Assembly (NCBI GenBank): GCA_902798915.1
Contig: CADBYM010000003.1
Coordinates: 1-64,000, forward strand
Direction: 5' to 3'
Length of the DNA: 64,000 nt
Origin: an uncultured Coriobacteriaceae bacterium
GTDB taxonomy: Bacteria > Actinomycetota > Coriobacteriia > Coriobacteriales > Atopobiaceae
Every line of letters starts with the position of its first letter. The first letter of the stretch is position 1. This document shows positions 19,526 through 52,589 of the stretch, in pieces. The notes beneath the pieces were generated by a model. That model made no database searches. It was given only the letters and a program-made list of their open reading frames with translations, and had not been told where the DNA came from. The translations under genes were made by a program, and so were the position numbers.

Positions 19526-20461
19526 CTATGCGGCGAGCTCCAGCATGCGCGTGAGGGCACGCCGGGCACCCTCGGCCGTCGCCTCGTCCACGAACACCTC
19601 GCCCGAAAGGTCGCGCAGGCACGCAACGACCTTCTCGCCCGTCACGCGACTCATGTTGGGGCAGATGGGCGTGGTCGCCGGGAAAAAGAACCGCTTCTTG
19701 CCCGCGTCGCCTGCTGCGGCGACCTGCTTCTGAATCTCGTGCAGCACGCCATAGACCGTGCAGATAATATAGTCCGTCTCGATACCTTCCACGCACCGCT
19801 TTATGATGCCCGATGTGGAGCCTATGTAGTCCGCCTCGTCGAGCACCCAGCTCGCACACTCCGGATGCGCGCAGACCACCGCACCGGGGTGCTCCGCCAT
19901 GGCGAGGCGCACCTCGGCGACCTCGATGGCCTCGTGGGTCGGGCAGAACCCGTCGTTCAGGATGATGTTCTTGCTCGGAACCTGCTGTTGGATGTAGTGG
20001 CCCAGGTGCAGATCCGGCACAAAGAGCACGTTGTGCTGCGGGAGACGCTCCACGATGCGCAGGGCGTTGGCCGAGGTCACGCACACGTCCGACCATGCCT
20101 TCATCTCGTTGGTGGAGTTGACGTAGCATGCCACCGCCAGATCGTCGCCATACTGCGCGCGAGCCGCGTCGATGGTCTCCTTGCGCAGCATGTGCGCCAT
20201 GGGACAGTCCGCAGACGGCTCGGGCATGAGCACGCGCTTCTCGGGCGAGAGGAGCTTGGCGCTCTCGGCCATGAACTCGACGCCCGCAAAGACGAGCGTT
20301 CGGCAATCGATGCTGGCCGCCTTGCGGGCAAGGAAGTACGAATCGCCCACGTAGTCCGCCAGATCCTGCGCGTCGTCCTGCACATAGTAGTGAGCGAGCA
20401 CGATCGCGTCGTGGCGCTCTTTGAGCTCGGCGAACTCGTCGAGTAGTTCCTTGCTCAGCAT
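19526..20461 (-). CDS. nadA: Quinolinate synthase NadA
   Basis: 311 residues. NadA condenses iminoaspartate with dihydroxyacetone phosphate using a [4Fe-4S] cluster. The three conserved cysteine sites are seen in ACYVNST, HPECASWV and TPICPNMSR. Other signatures are LAHYYVQDDAQDLADYVGDS near the start and the MPEPSADCPMAHM region. The ATG at 20461 follows GGGAGAAGG; a longer frame to 20506 adds 15 unlikely residues. It is the first gene of nadA-nadBC, so all three steps to nicotinate mononucleotide are made from one message. Confidence 0.95.
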   Translation of the reverse strand: MLSKELLDEFAELKERHDAIVLAHYYVQDDAQDLADYVGDSYFLARKAASIDCRTLVFAGVEFMAESAKLLSPEKRVLMPEPSADCPMAHMLRKETIDAARAQYGDDLAVACYVNSTNEMKAWSDVCVTSANALRIVERLPQHNVLFVPDLHLGHYIQQQVPSKNIILNDGFCPTHEAIEVAEVRLAMAEHPGAVVCAHPECASWVLDEADYIGSTSGIIKRCVEGIETDYIICTVYGVLHEIQKQVAAAGDAGKKRFFFPATTPICPNMSRVTGEKVVACLRDLSGEVFVDEATAEGARRALTRMLELAA

Positions 20462-20631
20462 GACCTTCTCCCTCGGTCGCCAGACAACGGCGCAACTATA
20501 GCACATGTAAGGAACAGCAACCCGCCCGAAAACGCTTGGGAGAAGGTTCGTGCCCCCTGTTTGCCCCTATTCGCCCCGCGCTGGAGCATGCCACCCTGAA
20601 GGGCAGCGTACTCCAGCTAGACCCGGCTGCA

Positions 20632-21030
20632 CTAGTAACCCCACGTCGAGCTGAGAGAATCGAGCGTCCCGTCGAGCTGGGCGTGCATGCGGTAGCGCAA
20701 TTGGGAGATGGTATGACTGCTCAGGTAAGATTGTCCGCTACCGTCCAACGTATCGTCTGGAATGAGGTGCATCCTATACGCCATGTAATTCGCGACCGAA
20801 ACACCGTGTTTATCCTGCACGGTCTGAATGGTGTTCCACGCCCTGTCGATTTCCTCGTGCGTCGGCGGGATGCGGTAGGCGTCACCGCCGGTCACGGCGT
20901 CCACCTCCTCTTCGGAGAGCTCCCTCCCGTCGCCCACAGCCTCCGCAAAGACGGCTGCTTTCTCCTCGGGCGTCTGGGCATTCTCGATGCGTCGCCTCTG
21001 ATCTTCGGTCAGGTTCAGTTCGAGGGCCAT
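20632..21030 (-). CDS. Double-glycine leader-type peptide (Nif11/RiPP precursor-like)
   Basis: 132 residues. The first 49 resemble a Nif11-like or bacteriocin-type leader: LTEDQRRRIENAQTPEEK, then the acidic GRELSEEEVDAVTGG with Gly48-Gly49 as a likely cleavage site. The remaining 83 residues contain no cysteine and are rich in Tyr, Ser, Thr and His (MAYRMHLIPDD, SLSSTWGY at the end). GGAGAAAG lies five bases before the ATG, so translation is well supported. No modifying enzyme, protease or transporter of a peptide-natural-product cluster is next to it. It may be an orphan precursor served in trans, or an unrelated small protein with a chance GG motif. Confidence 0.6.
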   Translation of the reverse strand: MALELNLTEDQRRRIENAQTPEEKAAVFAEAVGDGRELSEEEVDAVTGGDAYRIPPTHEEIDRAWNTIQTVQDKHGVSVANYMAYRMHLIPDDTLDGSGQSYLSSHTISQLRYRMHAQLDGTLDSLSSTWGY

Positions 21031-21240
21031 GGTCTTTCTCCTTCGTATACACGTCAGCTTTTTGCCTTCGCTAAACTATACGCCGGCGTTCGAGACGTGG
21101 CTCAATCTCTCAAACCATTACGCCGAATTGCAAAGGTATTGCCTCACCACACGCCGATGAACAGTAACGCGTCTTCGTGATTCGCATGGCGCGTACGATG
21201 GTGATTAGGCCGCAGGGCTCCAGGGAATCCGCACGACAGA

Positions 21241-21268
21241 GAGCTTCCGCGTCCATTGGAGGAAGCTC
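21241..21268 (-). terminator. Hairpin after the iron operon
   Basis: An 8-bp stem GAGCTTCC/GGAAGCTC lies 16 bases past the stop of the HMA gene. There is no T-run, so this is a weak candidate for the operon end. The rest of 21031-21240 is unremarkable. Confidence 0.35.
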
Positions 21269-21283
21269 CCGATGGACATGCCT

Positions 21284-21544
21284 TCAGTGCCTCGCAAAGA
21301 TAGCGCGCAGGCCCTTGCGCTCGTATGGTTCCGAGCTCACGGAGAGGAACTCATACCCGGTCTCGTCGATGGTCTTCTTGAGCAATTCCCCGTCGAGCTC
21401 CTCCTCCGAGACGATGACGCAGCTCTTCTTGCGGTGGTTGCTCTTGACGCTCTTCACGTCGAAGCTCCTGCGCACCGCGTCATTGATGTGCGCCTCACAC
21501 ATCTCGCACATCATGCCATCTATACCCACCGTCGTCTGTATCAT
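21284..21544 (-). CDS. Heavy-metal-associated (HMA) domain protein
   Basis: 86 residues, a CopZ/MerP-like ferredoxin-fold metal carrier. The motif GMMCEMCEAHI (Cys13 and Cys16) matches GMxCxxC of metal-binding HMA domains. It ends with an extra basic tail (ERKGLRAIFARH). Its ATG overlaps the stop of the upstream Cys-rich gene by four bases (ATGA), and it is the last gene of the ferrous iron operon, so an iron or redox-metal role is more likely than copper. That assignment is from context. Confidence 0.85.
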   Translation of the reverse strand: MIQTTVGIDGMMCEMCEAHINDAVRRSFDVKSVKSNHRKKSCVIVSEEELDGELLKKTIDETGYEFLSVSSEPYERKGLRAIFARH

Positions 21545-21738
21545 CGAAGCTCCTCCAACTGACGAAGCTGTTCCTCACTCAAATGAATCTGGCCGTGGCT
21601 GCACCCTGTGGAGCACCTCGCGCATCCAGAGCAGCTTCCGCCGCATCCGCAACCGCCGTCGCCGCGCAGCATGCCTCGGATGGCAAGCGCCACGATGAGC
21701 ACGAGGATTGTCACTACCACAAAGTCAGCCACGACCAA
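21541..21738 (-). CDS. FeoB-associated Cys-rich membrane protein
   Basis: 65 residues: one N-terminal membrane helix (ADFVVVTILVLIVALAIRGML), then a short loop with seven cysteines (GGCGCGGSCSGCARCSTGC) and a helical acidic tail. This form is the family of small Cys-rich proteins found beside feoB in many Gram-positives and anaerobes; the cysteines probably bind iron. It begins 10 bases after feoB. Confidence 0.88.
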   Translation of the reverse strand: MVVADFVVVTILVLIVALAIRGMLRGDGGCGCGGSCSGCARCSTGCSHGQIHLSEEQLRQLEELR

Positions 21739-21748
21739 TCATTCCAAT

Positions 21749-24010
21749 CTACCTGACGAGGAGCTCTTCGGCTTCCTCATACTTCTTCACGAACAGCATG
21801 TAGCCCACAAAGCCAAGAACTGCGATGGAGACCACCATGCCGAGGGGGTTCATAGCTCCAGCCGCAGCGAGGCCGAGCTGGTAGACCACCATGCCAGCGC
21901 AATAGGCAAAGAGGCACATGTAGCCAATGGCGAAGGCCGCCCACTTGCCGTTGTTCATCTCGCGCTTGATGGCGCCCATGGCCGCGAAGCACGGCGCGCA
22001 CAGCAGGTTGAAGATCATGAACGCGAACGCCGCGAGCTGCCCATGACCACCCGAGAAGGACTCGAAGTCCGCCTTGACGTTTGCCCAGATGGGCGACCCC
22101 TCGTCATCCCAGTCATCGGACTCGGTGTCGTAGTTGTACAGGACACCGAAGGTACTCACGACCTCCTCCTTGGCAACCAAGCCCGTGACCGTCGCGACGG
22201 CTGGCTTCCAACTACCGAAGCCCAGCGGGGCAAAGATTGGGGCAAAGGCGTTTCCGATTCCGGCGAGAATGGAGTCGTCCATGGGGCTGACCTCGTCGGG
22301 AGTCACGCGCATGCGTGCCGCAACGGTCGCAATGTACTCGTCGGTGACGAGCGACTCGTCCTCATAGAGGTCATCCACCATCCCGAAGGTGCCGTTGACC
22401 GTGCCGAAGCCGGAGAGCGCCCAAATGACGATGGACGAGAGCAAGATGACGGTGCCAGCCTTCTTGATGAACGACCAGCCGCGCTCCCACATGCTGCGGA
22501 TGACGTTGCCGAACGTGGGCATGTGGTAGGCAGGGAGCTCCATGACGAAGGGCGCGGGATCGCCTGCGAACATCTTCGTCTTCTTGAGCATGACGCCCGA
22601 GACGATAATCGCCGACACGCCAATGAAGTACGCGCTCGTGGAGACCCACGCCGCGCCACCGAAGAGGGCGCCGGCGATGAGGCCGATGATGGGCATCTTT
22701 GCGCCGCAAGGGATGAAGCATGTGGTGGTGATGGTCATGCGTCGGTCGCGCTCGTTCTCGATGGTACGCGACGCCATGACGCCGGGGACGCCGCAACCGG
22801 TGCCCACGAGCATCGGGATGAACGACTTGCCCGAGAGACCGAAGCGACGGAAGATACGGTCCATGATGAAGGCGATTCGCGCCATGTATCCGCAATCCTC
22901 CAGGATGGCGAGCAGCAGGAAGAGGACGAGCAACTGCGGCACAAAGCCGAGTACTGAGCCCACGCCGGCAAAGATGCCGTCGGAAAGCAGACCAACCAGC
23001 CAACCCGAAAGGCCCCAGCTCTCAAAGACCGCACGCGAACCCTCGGTGAGCCACTCGCCCCCCAGCACGTCATTGGTCCAGTCGGTGAGGAAGGTGCCGA
23101 GCGGCCCCATCGCGACCCAATACACGCCAAACATGATGACAGCAAAGATGGGCAGGGCCGCATTGCGGTTGGTGACGATGCGGTCGATCTTGTCCGACGT
23201 GGTGAGCTCACCCTTGTTTGCGCGCCGCAGGCATCCGTCGATGATGGACGTGATGTAGTCATAGCGCTGAGAGGTGATGATGGACTCGGCATCGTCGTCG
23301 AGCTCGGTCTCGCAGGCGACGATGTCGTTCTCGATGTGGGAGAGCGTCTGGGGCGAGAGGCCGAGCTTCTGCTGCACCTTCTCGTCACGCTCGAAGAGCT
23401 TTATGGCGTACCAGCGATGCTGCTCCTCGGGAAGGTTGTGGACCGTGACCTCCTCGATGTGGGCGAAGGCATGCTCCACGCTGCCCACGAAGCGATGCTG
23501 TGGGATGGGCTTGACGCCCGAGCGCGCCAATTCGAGGGCCTCCTCGGCCGCCTCCTTGATGCCTGTTCCCCTGAGGGCCGAGATGGCGACCACCTTGCAG
23601 TCGAGGGCCTTGGAGAGCGCGGCAAGGTCGATGACGTCGCCTCTCTTCTCGATGACATCCATCATGTTGACGGCCACGAGCACGGGAATGCCCAGCTCAA
23701 CGAGCTGCGTGGTGAGGTAGAGGTTGCGTTCGAGGTTGGTGCCGTCCACGATGTTGAGAATGGCATCGGGCCGCTGGTCGGTGAGGTAGTCACGCGCGAC
23801 CACCTCTTCGAGCGTGTAGGGCGAAAGCGAGTAGATGCCGGGCAGGTCGGCGATGGTCACGTCGGCATGGCCCTTGAGCTTGCCGTGCTTCTCCTCCACC
23901 GTGACGCCTGGCCAGTTGCCCACATACTGGTTTGAGCCCGTGAGCGCGTTGAAGAGCGTCGTCTTGCCGCAGTTGGGATTGCCCGCGAGGGCGATGGTGA
24001 TCTGTGCCAT
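21749..24010 (-). CDS. feoB: Ferrous iron transporter FeoB
   Basis: 753 residues. The N-terminal G domain has G1 GNPNCGKTT (10-18), DLPGIYSLSP, and the NMMD motif of G4, followed by a helical GDI-like region to about 270. The membrane domain has about ten helices with the conserved gates (GTGCGVPGVMASR and FIPCGAKMPIIG). GTP hydrolysis drives Fe(II) uptake, mainly under anoxic conditions. The ATG at 24010 is two bases after feoA. It is encoded with two feoA genes, a Cys-rich protein and an HMA protein. Confidence 0.96.
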   Translation of the reverse strand: MAQITIALAGNPNCGKTTLFNALTGSNQYVGNWPGVTVEEKHGKLKGHADVTIADLPGIYSLSPYTLEEVVARDYLTDQRPDAILNIVDGTNLERNLYLTTQLVELGIPVLVAVNMMDVIEKRGDVIDLAALSKALDCKVVAISALRGTGIKEAAEEALELARSGVKPIPQHRFVGSVEHAFAHIEEVTVHNLPEEQHRWYAIKLFERDEKVQQKLGLSPQTLSHIENDIVACETELDDDAESIITSQRYDYITSIIDGCLRRANKGELTTSDKIDRIVTNRNAALPIFAVIMFGVYWVAMGPLGTFLTDWTNDVLGGEWLTEGSRAVFESWGLSGWLVGLLSDGIFAGVGSVLGFVPQLLVLFLLLAILEDCGYMARIAFIMDRIFRRFGLSGKSFIPMLVGTGCGVPGVMASRTIENERDRRMTITTTCFIPCGAKMPIIGLIAGALFGGAAWVSTSAYFIGVSAIIVSGVMLKKTKMFAGDPAPFVMELPAYHMPTFGNVIRSMWERGWSFIKKAGTVILLSSIVIWALSGFGTVNGTFGMVDDLYEDESLVTDEYIATVAARMRVTPDEVSPMDDSILAGIGNAFAPIFAPLGFGSWKPAVATVTGLVAKEEVVSTFGVLYNYDTESDDWDDEGSPIWANVKADFESFSGGHGQLAAFAFMIFNLLCAPCFAAMGAIKREMNNGKWAAFAIGYMCLFAYCAGMVVYQLGLAAAGAMNPLGMVVSIAVLGFVGYMLFVKKYEEAEELLVR

Positions 24011-24012
24011 GG

Positions 24013-24243
24013 TTACGCCTCCACCGGTTCGACTTCGATCATCTCGCAGTCCGCCTTGCGCACCGAGAGCTCGTAGTTGCGCACGGTGACCTCGATGGGA
24101 TCGCCGAGCGGCGCGACCTTACGCACATGAATCTTCTGTCCCTTGGTGATGCCCATGTCCATGATCCGCCGCTTGACGGGACCCGTACCCTTGAGCTTGA
24201 CCACCTGTACCGTCTGGCCAACCCGTGCGTCACGAAGTGTCAT
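24013..24243 (-). CDS. feoA: FeoA family protein (second copy, next to feoB)
   Basis: 76 residues, an SH3-like FeoA domain: KLKGTGPVKRRIMDMGITKGQKIHVRK is the standard core. FeoA binds FeoB and is needed for its activity. The AGGAGG before the ATG is strong. The first FeoA of the operon starts 46 bases upstream and is only distantly similar. Confidence 0.93.
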   Translation of the reverse strand: MTLRDARVGQTVQVVKLKGTGPVKRRIMDMGITKGQKIHVRKVAPLGDPIEVTVRNYELSVRKADCEMIEVEPVEA

Positions 24244-24289
24244 GTTCTCCTCCTTGTTGATTCGCCCTTGTCAGTGCGCATTGGCGGGA

Positions 24290-24499
24290 CTAGACAAAGA
24301 TCTTCTTTGCCATCTCTTTGCTCACGGCCACGCGAGAGTCCTTGATGGAGCAGATCACGTTGCCACCCATCTCGCTGATCACCGTCACGTGGACCCCAAC
24401 CACGAAACCAAGGCCCTCGAGGAACTGGCGTGTCTCGGGCTTCCCACCAATTCTCGTGATGATGCTGCTCTGACCTGCCTTGAGTAACGTGAGTGGCAT
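24290..24499 (-). CDS. feoA: FeoA family protein (first gene of the iron operon)
   Basis: 69 residues. The FeoA core is seen in GQSSIITRIGGKPETRQFLEGLGF, with the family's QFLEGLG-V turn, and MGGNVICSIKDSRVAVS at the end. The ATG at 24499 follows GGAAGGA. A frame to 24529 adds ten residues without a ribosome site. It is first in the operon, just below a palindromic operator at 24535-24566. Confidence 0.9.
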   Translation of the reverse strand: MPLTLLKAGQSSIITRIGGKPETRQFLEGLGFVVGVHVTVISEMGGNVICSIKDSRVAVSKEMAKKIFV

Positions 24500-24534
24500 G
24501 TGTCCGTCCTTCCCATCGCTAATCGACAATGCAC

Positions 24535-24566
24535 AAGTTAACTTGAGCTAAGTTAGCTCTAGCTAA
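24535..24566 (-). promoter_or_regulatory. Overlapping palindromes, probable iron-repressor operator of the feo operon
   Basis: Three perfect inverted repeats lie 36-67 bases upstream of the first feoA start: AAGTTAACTT (24535-24544), GAGCTAAGTTAGCTC (24545-24559) and TTAGCTCTAGCTAA (24553-24566). TTAG and CTAA half-sites of this kind resemble DtxR/IdeR/MntR-type operators (consensus with TTAGG and CCTAA halves). The regulator is not encoded in this window, and the match is by eye. Confidence 0.6.
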
Positions 24567-24677
24567 GTTAGTGTATGCCAACTACAAAGTCAACCTATTT
24601 TTACTTTTTGTCTGTTGGGGGGAGCCACGTTTGGGTTGATGCCTTTTGGACGAGTTCCTTATCCGGCTGAGGTGACA

Positions 24678-24916
24678 CTACCGACAGAATCGGAGGTTGC
24701 GCCGGGGCGCGCCGGCCCCCTCGCCGCCCGCCTAACGGAATCGGAGGTTGTGGCGGGGCGCGCCGGCCCCCTCGCCGCCCGCCTAACGGAATCGGAGGTT
24801 GTGGCGGGGCGCGCCGGCCTCCTCGCCGCCCGCCTAACGGAATCGGAGGTTGTGGCAGAAATTCTTACAGAAATCGAGCTTGTGGCAAGCAATCTAATGA
24901 AGAGTAACCTTGTGGC
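24678..24916 (+). repeat. Tandem repeat array A, 51-bp unit
   Basis: The unit begins CTAACGGAATCGGAGGTTG and starts at 24732, 24783 and 24834 (period 51), with a diverged copy at 24678 and degenerate copies running to 24916. In one plus-strand frame each unit reads LTESEVVAGRAGPLAAR. The GC-rich second half contains the palindrome GGCGCGCC. The array lies between the iron operon and argD, where no convincing gene exists. Its core is the same as that of array B in reverse. Confidence 0.9.
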
Positions 24917-25132
24917 ATGCCACAAGGTCCGATTTCGTTAGGAGCTTTGCCACAAGGTCCGGTTTCGTTAGGAGGAGCTCTGGGGCTTTGCCACAAGGTC
25001 CGATTTCGTTAGGGGCCGTGCCACAAGGTCCGATTTCGTTAGGGGCCGTGCCACAAGGTCCGATTTCGTTAGGGGCCGTGCCGCAAGGTCCGATTTCGTT
25101 AGGAGCTTTGCCGCAAGGTCCCTTTCCGTTAG
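24917..25132 (-). repeat. Tandem repeat array B, mostly 30-bp units, inverted relative to array A
   Basis: Seven copies of a 23-bp core (GCCACAAGGTCCGATTTCG plus TTAG) start at 24919, 24949, 24990, 25020, 25050, 25080 and 25110. Read on the minus strand, each core gives LTKSDLVA, the same phase as LTESEVVA in array A. The junction of the arrays is a perfect 22-bp palindrome at 24907-24928. Repeats are head-to-tail with only 7-18 bases between cores, so they are not CRISPR spacers. Confidence 0.9.
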
Positions 25133-25366
25133 GAGGCGTTGCTCGGAGGTTGTCGAAACCTTCCACATTTTGCACACAATTGGGGCTTTCGCGAATGGCA
25201 ATTACGCAATTCTTGTCCCAGACACTTGATACGTTCAATTCGAGCTTGGGCCACCCGGCCGGCTCACCGCGCGCGACTGGCCTTCCCCCGGAGCGAAGAC
25301 GCTTCCGCTGGTCGCGCGTATTGCTGGTCGCGCGTCGTTGGTCGCACCACTTCGCTGGAAAAGAGC
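25133..25366. other. Intergenic remainder between repeat array and argD terminator
   Basis: About 230 bases. A last degenerate repeat fragment (CTCGGAGGTTGTCG) lies at 25142-25155. The rest has Arg/Ala-like codon composition on both strands, but no frame with a ribosome site or recognisable product. Confidence 0.5.
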
Positions 25367-25411
25367 GGGCGCATCCCCGCCACAGGATTTGGCTGCGGCG
25401 GGGATGCGCCC
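25367..25411 (-). terminator. Terminator of the argJBD operon
   Basis: A 15-bp perfect stem (GGGCGCATCCCCGCC and complement) with a 15-base loop, followed on the minus strand by GCTCTTTTCC. It begins 29 bases past the argD stop. Confidence 0.8.
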
Positions 25412-25440
25412 ACAACGGAACATTTGGATTGGATGAGCCG

Positions 25441-26697
25441 CTACGCGAGCATCTGCTCCAAGGCGTCGCACATCTCGTCGATCTGCTCGTCGCTCACGAC
25501 CAGTGGCGGCAGGAAGCGCAGGATGGAGTCGCCGATGTGGTTGAGCACAAGACCACGGCTGCCGTTCTCGGCCCGCTCGAGGCCCTTCTCGACGAGGTCG
25601 TTCGCCACGGGCACATCGAGCTGGGCGCCACGCATGAGGCCTGCACCGCGCACCTCCGTGACGTGCGGCAATGCCGCGAGCCGACGCGCGAGGTGATCCC
25701 CCGCCGCTATGACGTGCTCGCCCATGTCCTCCACGACGAGCGTCTCTAGGCACGCACGCCCGCAAGCCACGGCCAAGGGGTTGCCACCGAAGGTCGATCC
25801 GTGGTCTCCGGGCACGAGAAGGTCAGCGACCTCCGCACGCGCCGCCACGCCGCCAGTCGGGAACCCGCCTGCGATGCCCTTTGCGACGCTCACCACGTCC
25901 GGCTCGATGCCTGCGCGCTGGTACGAGAACGGCGCGCCAGTCCGGAACACACCGGTCTGCACCTCGTCGATGACGAGCAGGATGTTACGCTCCGAGCACG
26001 CCTCCCGCACGGCACGCAGATAGTCGAGGTCTGCCGGCCACACGCCTCCCTCGCCTTGGATGCACTCGAGCATGACCGCGCACACGCGACCGGTCGCATC
26101 GCTCGGCTCGTCAAGCGCAGCCACGAGGGCATCGATGTCGTTGAGCTCGACCGCATCGAAGCCTGCGGGCAGCGGACGGAAGCTCTTGTGGAAGACGTCC
26201 TGTCCTGTGGCGGCAAGAGTTGCGAGCGTGCGTCCATGGAAGCTCTTGCGCGCCGTGAGGATGCCCGACGCACCGTCGAGGCGCTTCTCGCCCCAGCGGC
26301 GGGCAAGCTTGAAGGCGCCCTCGTTCGCCTCGGCACCCGAGTTTGCGAAGAACGTCTTCCACATGGTACCGGTCGTGCCCGTGATGTGGCCACGCTCGTC
26401 GGTCGTCTTTGCAAGCAGCTGCGAGAGCAGGCGTGCATACTCGCCACGATTCTCCTCGTGGTAGTAGTTGCTTACCTGCCACACCTTGGTGGCCTGGTCC
26501 TGCAGCGCGGCCACGAGCGCGGGGTGCGCGTGACCAAGGCAGGCACATCCGATGCCCGCCAAGAAGTCCAGGTACTCGTTGCCCGCGGCATCCACCAGCA
26601 CCGCCCCGTCACCCGAGACGAATTCGACCGGATACCGTCCGTACGTATGGATCACATATCCCTCGTCGAGCGTAAGCGCGTCCTCGTTAGCAAACAT
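25441..26697 (-). CDS. argD: Acetylornithine aminotransferase ArgD
   Basis: 418 residues, a class III PLP aminotransferase. Seen are the FFANSGAEANEGAFKLAR cofactor-phosphate region, FHGRTLATLAATGQ, the LVIDEVQTG aspartate that holds the pyridine ring, and the lysine in SVAKGIAGGFP that forms the Schiff base. HGSTFGGNPLA follows. It converts N-acetylglutamate semialdehyde to N-acetylornithine in arginine synthesis. It is last in argJ-argB-argD, nine bases after argB, and is followed by a strong terminator. Confidence 0.94.
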   Translation of the reverse strand: MFANEDALTLDEGYVIHTYGRYPVEFVSGDGAVLVDAAGNEYLDFLAGIGCACLGHAHPALVAALQDQATKVWQVSNYYHEENRGEYARLLSQLLAKTTDERGHITGTTGTMWKTFFANSGAEANEGAFKLARRWGEKRLDGASGILTARKSFHGRTLATLAATGQDVFHKSFRPLPAGFDAVELNDIDALVAALDEPSDATGRVCAVMLECIQGEGGVWPADLDYLRAVREACSERNILLVIDEVQTGVFRTGAPFSYQRAGIEPDVVSVAKGIAGGFPTGGVAARAEVADLLVPGDHGSTFGGNPLAVACGRACLETLVVEDMGEHVIAAGDHLARRLAALPHVTEVRGAGLMRGAQLDVPVANDLVEKGLERAENGSRGLVLNHIGDSILRFLPPLVVSDEQIDEMCDALEQMLA

Positions 26698-48356: not shown

Positions 48357-51300
48357 TCACTCGCTGCGCAGCGCCTCGACGGGATCGGCCTTAGCCGCCT
48401 TCCGCGCCGGAAGGAGTCCCGCAACGAACGAGAGCAGCACGCTCACGCCCACCAGAATCGCCGCCGCCGCAACGGGTAGGCGCGCCACGCGTTCCACGTC
48501 GAAGTTCGCCTCTACGATGGCGTTTGCGGGTATGCACGCAAGCGCCGTTATCGTAACGCCCATCAGGCCCGAGACCAGCCCCTCGATGACGGTCTCGGCG
48601 TTGAAGACACGGCTCACGTCACCCTTGCTCGCACCGATGGAACGCAGGATGCCGATCTCCTTGCGGCGCTCGAGCACGCTGATGTAGGTGATGACCCCAA
48701 TCATGATGGAGCTCACGACCAGCGATATGGCAACGAAGGCAATGAGCACGTAGCTGATCATGTTGATAATGTCGGTGACTGACGTCATGAGCGCGCCAAC
48801 GAGGTCGGTGTAGGTGATCTTCTTGTCTTCCTCGCCCTGCGCGACGGCGCGCTCGTTGTAGGCGTCCAAGATGCTGATGACCTCTGCCTTGGACTCGAAG
48901 TCGCGCGGATAGATGTCAATCTCGGAAGGTGCACTCGGGTTGGCATAGCCCATCTTCGCAAGATTGCCGCCGTAGGTCGCGCGCTCGGTGCTCATGAGCG
49001 CCTGAAGCAGCTCTCCAAGCTGCTTCTCGCTCATGCTGAGGTCGAACGCCCCTGCGAACGCATCCTTGTCGATGCTGATCGCATTCGCCATGTTCTCGCC
49101 CATGCTCTCCATGGCACGCCGCATGGCCTCCTCCATGCCGCTCTGCATCGCGGAGCCCAACGAGTTGACAAGGGAATCCTGCAGCGCCGTCATCACCTTC
49201 GTAAGATATGCTTGCATGACCTGCGCAAAGTACGTCTCCATCGTCCTTGCGAGCGACGACGAGAGCACCTGCCCGACGCGGGCACCCAACTGCTGCGCAA
49301 GCTGACCTCCCAGCTGCCCCCCGACCTGGTTGGCAATCTGGCCGGCAAGCTGCCCCAGCGTCTGTTGGGCCGCTTCCCCGAGCTTCTTGCGCGTCCCCTC
49401 GTCCAAGGAATCCCAGATGCCCGAGGCCGAAGGCGCGCTCACCTGCCCTTGGAGCCGCTTGGCCAGCACCTGCAAGTCCTCCTCCGAAATGCTTACCGCC
49501 TGCCCAAGCTCTTGCAGCGCCCGTTGTGCCTGCGCGGTGGCGAGGTAGCCCTGCACCAGCTGGCTGACGTCACCCACAGACGAGGTCTTGCCCAAGGCGT
49601 ACGACAAGTACTGCGAGAACCCCGACTGCAGGCTGGCAACCGCCGTGGAGAGCGCCGCCTGATCCACGCGTGGCGTCACCCCCTCAAAGAGCTTCGCGGC
49701 GTCGATGGCCGAGACGTTCGGCGCGAGCGCCGCCATGACCTCAGGAGAGAGCAGCGCGCCCAAGTCGATGCCGGAGAGGTCAACGCCCGAAAGGTCGATG
49801 GCCGAGAGGTCAATGGCCGAGAGGTCCGGAACGAGTGCCTGCCTCAGCTCGGGAGGTATCTGCACCTCCTGGATATCGGCCTCTTCCCCGTCGGCTATGC
49901 CAGGAGCGAGCGTCGCAGGGTCAATGGCCGAGAGGTCGATTTGGCTGAGCCGCTGGCGCATCTGCTCCTCGAGCTGCCTGCCCACCTGCGACATCACCTC
50001 TTGTGCCACCTGATCCACGACCGCCCCGATCTGGGCATCGAGCTTCGCGCGTGTCTGCGGGTCCAGTGAGTCGAGCGCATTGGGCGCGACCGCATTCGCG
50101 AGCTGCTCCCGCAGCCTGGCTTCGATGAGGGCACGGTCGGCATCCGAGATGCTCACCGAGCCAAGCACGCCTTGGAGCGCCTGGCGTGCCTCGTCGGAGG
50201 CAAGGTAGTTCGCCAAGGCGTTTGTGAGCTCCTGCGCGTCATCGGAGCCGAGCGCGTTCTTTGCGACGTAATCGACGAATCCGGTCTGCAGGGCCGCGCC
50301 GGCCTTCGCCAGCGCGTCCTCGTCGATCATTGGAGCGATGTCCGTGATGAGCGCGTTGATGTCGATTGCGGAGATGTTCGGTGCCAGCGCGCTGAGCAGC
50401 TCGGGCGAGAGCAGCGGCGAGAGGTCGACGCCCGAGAAGTCCAGACGCGAGAGGTCGATTCCCGAAAGATCGAGCGAGCTCAGGTCGAGACCGAGGTCGC
50501 CGAATTCCTCAAGCGAGGGAAGGGATGACGCCAGATCAAGCTGGCTCATGTCGAGTCCCTGAAGGTCGTCTGCCGAGAAGTCAATCGAGGAGAGGTCGAG
50601 CCCGTTCGCCATCATGGAGGGGTCGAAGGCGCCCTCCAGCCCCGAGAGGTCCAACGACGAGAGGTCGAGCGCGCTCTCATCGAACTTGAACGCCTTGGCG
50701 ATCTGGTCCTCGTCAACCGAAAAGAGCGACGAGAAGTCGAGGTCCTTGCCGCCTTGCGCCTCCTCGTCGAATGACTTGCCGCTGAGGATGTTCTTGTCTT
50801 GATGCGCGCGCTGCTCCTTGACGATCTGGGACTGCGCCGCCTGCTCCATGAGCCAGCTGGTGAGCTGGGGCGTGTAGTAGATGCCCATGCTGATGGTCGC
50901 GGCGTCAACGTCCTCGCGCCGCTGCACCACGCCGACGACCTTGAGGGTCGGCGCCTCCTTCATGAGGCCCTCCACGAATCCCTCGTCGTCACCCTTCTTG
51001 GTCCATACGTCGTATTCGGCATCATGCTCGTAGAACCGAAACGCAGGCACCACCTTGAACGTCGTCGACATCAAATCCTCGAGGCTGAAGCTCAGCTCGT
51101 CGTCCGGGGACTCGACGTTCTCCCCCTTCGCAAAGCTTTGCACCATCTCCTCGAGTTCCTTGTGGTCACGTAACCCCATGGCATAGCTCATGAAGTCCGA
51201 TATCGTACCCTGGGGCGAGAGCACCAGCACCAGCTCGTCATAGGCCTCCGGCCACCTTCCCCTCCGGACGTCGAACTGGTCCTCCACCAGAGAGAGGTCG

Positions 51301-52589
51301 GCCGGCATCTGCGAGAACACGTTTGTCGAGAAGCTCCCGCTCATCATGGAGGAGCCACCGAAGCCCAAGGACTCGAACGTGGTGTCGGGATTGACCTGCA
51401 CGGGCTTCTTTCCCTCGCTGTGCAAGAACACCTGAGGCGTCACGCTGTACAGGTACTCTATGTCCTGCACATGGCCGGCGATGCCACCACCGTCCTCGTC
51501 GAGGTACTCCTTGAGCGAGACGAGGTCGTTCTTGCCCACGCTGCCAAACATGGTTCCCACCATCCGTGACTCGATGACGGTGTTGGGGTCTTGGGCCTCC
51601 TCGGACTTGAGCTCGTCGCGCTGCCCCTGCACGTCGGCGATCATCGACGTCATGTCGAAGCCGGAGCTCGTGATCTGTAGCGGGTACACCGAGAGGGTCT
51701 CCTCCTCCACCTCGTGGATGTAGGCGTTGACACCGTTGGCGAGCGCGAGAATGGCGGCGATGCCGATGATGCCGATCGACCCCGCGAACGCCGTCATGAG
51801 CGTACGGCCCTTCTTCGTCATGAGATTGTTGAACGAGAGCGCGAGGGCCGTGAGGAAGCTCATGGAGGTGCGTCGCGGTGGCTTGGCGTCGCGCAGGTCC
51901 TCCGGCGTCGGGACGAAGGGGTCCGAGTCGGCCCGGATGCGCCCGTCGGCGAGCTCCACGATGCGAGTCGAATACTCACGTGCGAGCTCGGGGTTGTGCG
52001 TGACCATGATTACCAGGCGATCGTCGGCAACCTCGCGCAGAAGGTCCATGACCTGCACCGACGTGCGCGAGTCCAGCGCGCCGGTGGGCTCGTCGGCAAG
52101 CAGAATCTCGGGGTCGTTTATGAGCGCCCGAGCGATGGCGACGCGTTGCATCTGGCCACCGGAGAGCTGGCTCGGCCGCTTGTCCACATGGTCGCCAAGC
52201 CCCACCTCGGCCAATGCCTGCCTCGCACGCTCGCGACGCTCCGCGGCACTCACCCCCGAGAGCGTCAGCGCCAGCTCCACGTTGGCAAGGATGGTCTGGT
52301 GCGGAATGAGGTTGTAGCTTTGGAAGACGAAGCCGATGCGGTTGTTGCGGTAGGCGTCCCAGTCGCGGTCCTTGTACTCACGCGTGGAAATCCCGTCAAT
52401 GACGAGATCGCCGGAGTCAAAGTGATCGAGTCCGCCAATCACGTTGAGCATGGTGGTCTTGCCGGAGCCGGAAGGACCCAGAATCGAGACGAACTCGTTG
52501 TCCCTGAACGCGAGGCTGACGTCGTCAAGCGCCACTTGGGTGAATGAGCTTGTTATGTAGGATTTGCAAACGTGCTCGAGCTGCAGCAT
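48357..52589 (-). CDS. Fused MacB-like ABC exporter with giant extracellular insert
   Basis: 1410 residues joining ATPase and permease. Residues about 1-235: Walker [10 protein letters not shown], signature LSGGQMQR, Walker [14 protein letters not shown] helix near 265-290 ([21 protein letters not shown]) opens a MacB-type extracellular region. Residues about 630-740 and 905-955 carry pentapeptide-like runs ([37 protein letters not shown]). Two similar blocks of about 200 residues (about 696-905 and 925-1120) both contain a LLSPE...ALAPN.SAID segment, so the insert has been duplicated. FtsX core about 1250-1410 with PVEALRSE end. Start 52589: AAGGGGG before ATG. Substrate unknown. Confidence 0.9.

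Follow-up and report, generated by a model that had tools for sequence, protein, structure and literature searches.

The intergenic space between argD and the feo operon of this uncultured Atopobiaceae bacterium holds a repeat of two arms, the units of which reverse polarity at a palindrome (about nt 24681 – 25133 of the window, i.e. the whole 64,000-nucleotide stretch analysed). The question raised by this locus is whether such a layout reflects a coding repeat, a folded structure, a mobile element or a set of protein-binding sites.

Structure of the array in the window

The features of the locus are as follows.

24290..24529, minus strand: flanking feoA-like gene, start of the feo operon
24681..24857, plus strand: left arm, outer part; four 24-nt units at 24681 (degenerate), 24732, 24783 and 24834, in 51-bp steps
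24864..24917, plus strand: left arm, inner part; two units at 24864 and 24894, step 30 bp
24907..24928, no strand: dyad; perfect 22-bp palindrome ACCTTGTGGCATGCCACAAGGT, at which the innermost units of both arms abut head-to-head
24918..25132, minus strand: right arm; seven units at 24919, 24949, 24990, 25020, 25050, 25080 and 25110
25367..25411, no strand: inverted repeat 3' of argD, 19 bp, 95% complementary
25441..26697, minus strand: flanking gene argD (aminotransferase)

Both arms and their opposite polarity were confirmed. The first-pass annotation had described two opposed arrays, the left one made of 51-bp units; the opposition stands, but the last two units of the left arm are spaced at 30 bp. 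Steps in the right arm are 30, 41, 30, 30, 30 and 30 bp. The array lies between the feo operon and the argD stop codon with its hairpin (nt 25367 – 25411), which, judged from its sequence, is probably the argD terminator and bounds the intergenic space holding the array. The feo cluster and other genes are found between nadA and argD (nt 19526 – 25440) both here and in the related genome G014 (see below), and in some other members of the genus (e.g. G010, G012 and G007) nadA directly follows argD.

A genome-wide family of arrays

When the array was used to query its own genome, 25 matches were obtained, representing at least 13 arrays (roughly 100 units over those 13 loci), 12 of them additional to that in the window, with E-values down to 1e-31. 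Four of the 13 are found on a single contig of 103 kb. The 18-nt core AAATCGGACCTTGTGGCA, at three mismatches or fewer, matched 27 times in the genome versus none for the reversed control. Among 16 genomes of the genus, the same core was present in one other, that of the sister species Atopobiaceae bacterium RGIG5762 (G014, from sheep ileum), which carries 19 arrays, giving 32 for the two genomes together. The earlier suspicion that the core is part of a genome-wide repeat family is borne out by these numbers. A scan of 85,000 species for the core returned, beyond the two array genomes, only one match, in an Azoarcus MAG, where it stands in an unrelated context and is a chance match. Such arrays were not found described in the literature on this bacterial group.

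Both array genomes are draft assemblies of more than 100 contigs each, and that of RGIG5762 is a MAG. Two of its contigs, C19 (L122:1-60) and C55 (L115:1-80), start inside or beside arrays, from which it appears that arrays probably break assemblies and that the true number of loci is higher. Collapse of reads in assembly, which had been considered as a source of the pattern, is very unlikely given the independent orthologous arrays in the second genome.

Coding and hairpin readings

Short open frames reading LTESEVVA or LTKSDLVA cross the window array, and these had suggested a coding repeat, while the opposed arms had suggested a transcribed RNA hairpin or a cruciform. Both ideas are now very improbable. 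Of 62 arms, 52 combine units of different frames and 50 have a stop in the frame of the first unit; the three codon positions vary to a similar degree (0.24, 0.22 and 0.28), and the orthologue of the window array in G014, which has 52-bp steps, is not traversed by any ORF of 60 aa or more. Within the window array itself, the 41-bp step of the right arm breaks the supposed coding phase. Nor do the repeats insert in frame into genes, as had been surmised, since every one of the 32 arrays is intergenic. Repeat frames of this kind are a caution to annotators against labelling them as repeat proteins.

A selected cruciform or RNA hairpin finds no better footing, as the similarity of units on opposite sides of the dyad does not exceed that of shuffled pairs (identity of L1 and R1 at variable positions 0.519 versus 0.556 shuffled, p 0.93), i.e. 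there is no pairing covariation, and single units fold no better than shuffled ones (mean energy of 178 distinct units 0.33 kcal/mol worse). A known RNA family was also considered and set aside; a search of Rfam gave no match above the gathering score and one sub-threshold, irrelevant match.

Repeat unit, dyad and helical spacing

The repeat unit is 24 nt in length (CTAACGRAANNSGASSTTGTGGCA). The consensus of the 178 distinct units is CTAACGRAANNSGASSTTGTGGC, followed by an A in nearly every linker. All 32 loci have their two central units placed head-to-head, with an offset of 25 bp between the 23-nt cores; in one of them (L051) the central minus unit, although degenerate, occupies the usual position. 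The switch of orientation at the palindrome, noted from the window alone in the first-pass annotation, is real, and this mirror layout is the defining feature of the family. Arrays range from 179 to 532 bp and from 5 to 13 units.

The innermost step is 30 – 31 bp in 62 of 64 arms, and the outer steps are 30, 41 or 52 bp. After clustering of linkers at 70% identity to drop copies, 53 independent linkers remained, of which 51 lie within 1 bp of 30, 41 or 52 bp (expected 14.5). The circular resultant of the spacing reaches 0.97 for a period of about 10.9 bp and is 0.96 for one of 10.5 bp. An increment of 11 bp is one helical turn, so that units remain near one face of the DNA; the steps correspond to 30 bp plus whole turns, the near-integral spacing on one face that characterises a helically phased array.

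Neighbouring units within an arm become more alike outward (identity 0.56, 0.75 and 0.89 in left arms; 0.63, 0.81 and 0.84 in right arms; shuffles 0.53 – 0.61). Likeness within arms without likeness across the dyad points to arms that have grown independently, their outer units being duplicated in tandem.

Placement, orthology and constraint

The intergenic placement is fixed, and neighbouring genes occur in all orientations. They are functionally unrelated, and include herA, rsmI, glgX, clpP and rpsI, genes for an MFS protein, a papain-type peptidase, AMMECR1, PHP and ROK proteins and a copper ATPase, and others. Among the flanking genes examined there is no DNA-binding partner common to the arrays, and an autoregulated flanking gene was rejected as an explanation on that ground. 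More generally, the arrays might be operators through which a single global transcription factor governs the adjacent genes: some lie within a few to tens of bases of start codons or in divergent intergenic regions, and the layout is compatible with cooperative operators. This reading is nevertheless improbable, because the flanking genes share no common function, many arrays are found at the 3' ends of genes, or between genes of the same direction and at distances that vary, and 5 – 13 units over 179 – 532 bp is large for an operator.

All 13 arrays of this genome have an orthologous array in G014. When the four central units were compared across the 13 pairs, identity was 90% at conserved positions (705/780), against 67% at variable core positions and 67% in linkers; an inner step of 31 or 41 bp puts some pairs slightly out of register, which lowers all of these figures. 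For loci of this genome that are not orthologous, identity is again 90% at conserved positions and 51% in linkers, and the most similar pair reaches only 81%. With cores at 90% against linkers at 51%, and a best pair of 81%, the cores have not been kept alike through recent copying; on this comparison of sequences, they are maintained by purifying selection.

Three sites at which only G014 has a full array were compared; two have no array here and one has a lone head-to-head dimer, and there was no clear target-site duplication at any of the three. Of the other G014-only sites, a fourth lies at a synteny break and two at contig ends. Sites that are empty or reduced to a dimer in this genome indicate that not every site is indispensable.

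At two loci (L048/L059 and L049/L060) the nucleotide identity between the species jumps at the array, from 84 to 95% and from 79 to 98%. A role of the arrays as interspecies recombination breakpoints, hinted at by these two loci, was unconvincing with longer flanks and was rejected.

Arrays with other cores in the genus

In G011, a genus member that lacks the window core, 344 kb were scanned blind, and the same layout was recovered, built on a different sequence, GACGRAANNYCGACCTSTGCAA. Searched over whole genomes, this pattern gave 214 matches in G011, and no other genome had more than 2. The head-to-head offset of the G011 arrays is 31 bp (21/24), the steps are 40, 41 or 82 bp and the tail-to-tail distance is 72 bp, all near whole turns; there are more than 100 units, many of them as head-to-head dimers intermixed with other repeats. 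Eight further members of the genus were scanned in part. Head-to-head arrays were found in G004, one with 7+5 units at exactly 31 bp and one with 4+3 at 30 bp, and in G015, where CTGYYGGGATTNNNRNCTGTGGC recurs at 39/30 bp and matches a window unit at 14 of 23 positions (by eye). G001 has a looser type, with GCAAAGTCTGTAGC at 21 bp and an AT-rich centre between the two arms; it may represent another class of array. Turn spacing is thus seen also in G011, G004 and G001. No convincing array was seen in 40 – 100 kb each of G006, G007, G009, G010 and G012, nor any array in 260 kb from three other genera, which is weak evidence of absence, given the small samples and a scan that failed to recover several known arrays in a positive control.

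Near gyrA in G001, a 351-aa ORF with no match in Pfam or NCBIfam lies between two arrays of 21-bp step (L245:4740-6740, contig C96) and is a candidate for the partner protein of the G001 array type.

Relationship to mobile intergenic repeats

The main rival to a binding-site reading is that the arrays are non-autonomous mobile repeats resembling REPINs or BIMEs, in which a head-to-head pair is moved in trans by a transposase and the tandem steps follow from the mechanism. REP-type repeats usually exceed 100 copies per genome, and their cognate RAYT gene, encoding a Y1 transposase, is flanked by the repeat. REPs, BIMEs and REPINs typically occur as intergenic inverted pairs, differ in sequence by species and form mosaic clusters (PMC2817692, PMC3116915). 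The present family is similarly intergenic and multi-copy, with inverted pairs, species-specific sequence and clusters of variable length, and opposed, regularly spaced intergenic repeats were found at 32 of 32 arrays. One site here holds a lone dimer, and the more than 100 units of G011, isolated dimers included, look like a spreading element and leave room for a mobile origin.

Most of the REP-defining features that were tested are, however, lacking. A REP is imperfectly palindromic and can fold into a hairpin (PMC2817692), and in a REPIN the inverted doublet folds as a hairpin and shows compensatory changes (PMC3116915). The unit described here is neither palindrome nor hairpin, the arms of the dyad show no covariation, there is no GTAG-type tag, and units are locked to steps of 30+11n bp. 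Rather than dispersed recent copies, there are about 13 – 19 loci at conserved places, all 13 sites of this genome being common to the sister species, the best pair of loci is no recent copy, and empty sites lack a clear target-site duplication. Y1 transposase genes are present in 15 of the 16 genus genomes, which is compatible with mobility, but this presence does not track the arrays and so does not discriminate, and on that ground the transposase is not favoured as an array partner. Four Y1 loci that were retrieved (one from G014; the gene of the present genome is not among them) carry no array unit, and one Y1 transposase of G001 adjoins other palindromes, GGGGACAGGTCACTTGTC. A mobile origin is on balance unlikely.

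The Y1/RAYT transposase gene at L278:10921-11964 (contig C114 of G001) directly adjoins palindromes CTGACAAGGGGACAGGTCACTTGTCAG, and GGGGACAGTCCCC-like palindromes recur in G001, G004, G006, G009 and G015. This gene and its palindromes are probably the real REP/RAYT pair of the genus.

Comparison with other repeat systems

Plasmid replication iterons, parC of ParRMC systems and tubC consist of direct repeats about whole turns apart, bound by an oligomerising protein, and some are two-armed. The arrays share with them direct repeats at about whole helical turns but differ in being chromosomal, at many loci per genome, among unrelated neighbours and with no replication or partition gene. Searches of plasmids, phages and IMG/VR gave no match to the array, and its flanks are chromosomal genes; a plasmid, phage or virus origin was rejected, as was an iteron or partition module.

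The sites parS, matS and those of Noc are single palindromes of broadly conserved sequence, dispersed on the chromosome. The arrays are likewise built of short, sequence-specific, dispersed chromosomal sites, and their 16-bp palindromic centre is about the size of a parS operator; unlike those sites, they are multi-unit and change in sequence between species of one genus. The parS consensus of ParB, TGTTTCACGTGAAACA, is not the array sequence, and a separate parS with one mismatch lies on another contig of this genome. Replacement of parS by the arrays was rejected, parS-like sites being present across the genus. A CRISPR was also rejected, as the units are degenerate, the linkers have three lengths and are homogenised within arms, and the polarity reverses.

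Proposed role of the arrays

The arrays are probably binding sites for an oligomerising, lineage-specific DNA-binding protein, a reading that rests on their sequence and layout. The putative protein would recognise a specific sequence and be encoded by these bacteria themselves. The two abutting head-to-head units would nucleate a complex of this putative protein, and outward units of the same polarity, at 30, 41 or 52 bp, would place further bound molecules near the same face of the helix and in contact, i.e. binding would be cooperative. A filament or loop could then grow symmetrically outward from the dyad, and arm length would change through local tandem duplication of outer units, each arm being homogenised separately. 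Helix-locked head-to-head arrays, orthologous intergenic sites and a core replaced between related species are together a strong signature of an unknown protein-DNA system. As the recognised sequence differs by species while the layout is constant, co-evolution of site and putative protein is implied.

The likeliest use of such sites would be architectural (nucleoid organisation or bridging) rather than the control of one regulon, as the neighbours share no common function and the sites are conserved; this role is possible but can be proposed only tentatively. Somewhat more doubtful is the wider suggestion that mirror-symmetric, helix-phased arrays constitute an undescribed class of chromosomal site in this Atopobiaceae genus, organising the chromosome via a dedicated putative protein, with the recognition sequence replaced by species and the architecture conserved. 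If true, this would be a bacterial parallel to fast-evolving centromere DNA and its binding protein. Confirmation would reveal a lineage-specific means by which a bacterial chromosome is marked or folded, and would offer a tractable example of co-evolution between a protein and its sites, in a gut-bacterial family with little-studied chromosome biology.

Other repeats observed

In the window, a 15/30-bp tandem repeat (nt 49757 – 49826) lies within a gene of 1410 codons (nt 48357 – 52589, minus strand). In G011, a 27-bp motif, CTATGAAGCATCTTGGGGAGCATATCA, occurs about 130 – 160 bp from many arrays and also without arrays (L202, L206, L221, L226, L227, L230 and L235); the sequences to its left differ and that to its right is unique, and it resembles the end of an interspersed element. 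A large palindromic element, GTGTACAATTTC...GGCTCAATGTACGAT, is present twice in contig C80 of the same genome, at L193:6390 and L196:910, and belongs to a separate repeat family.
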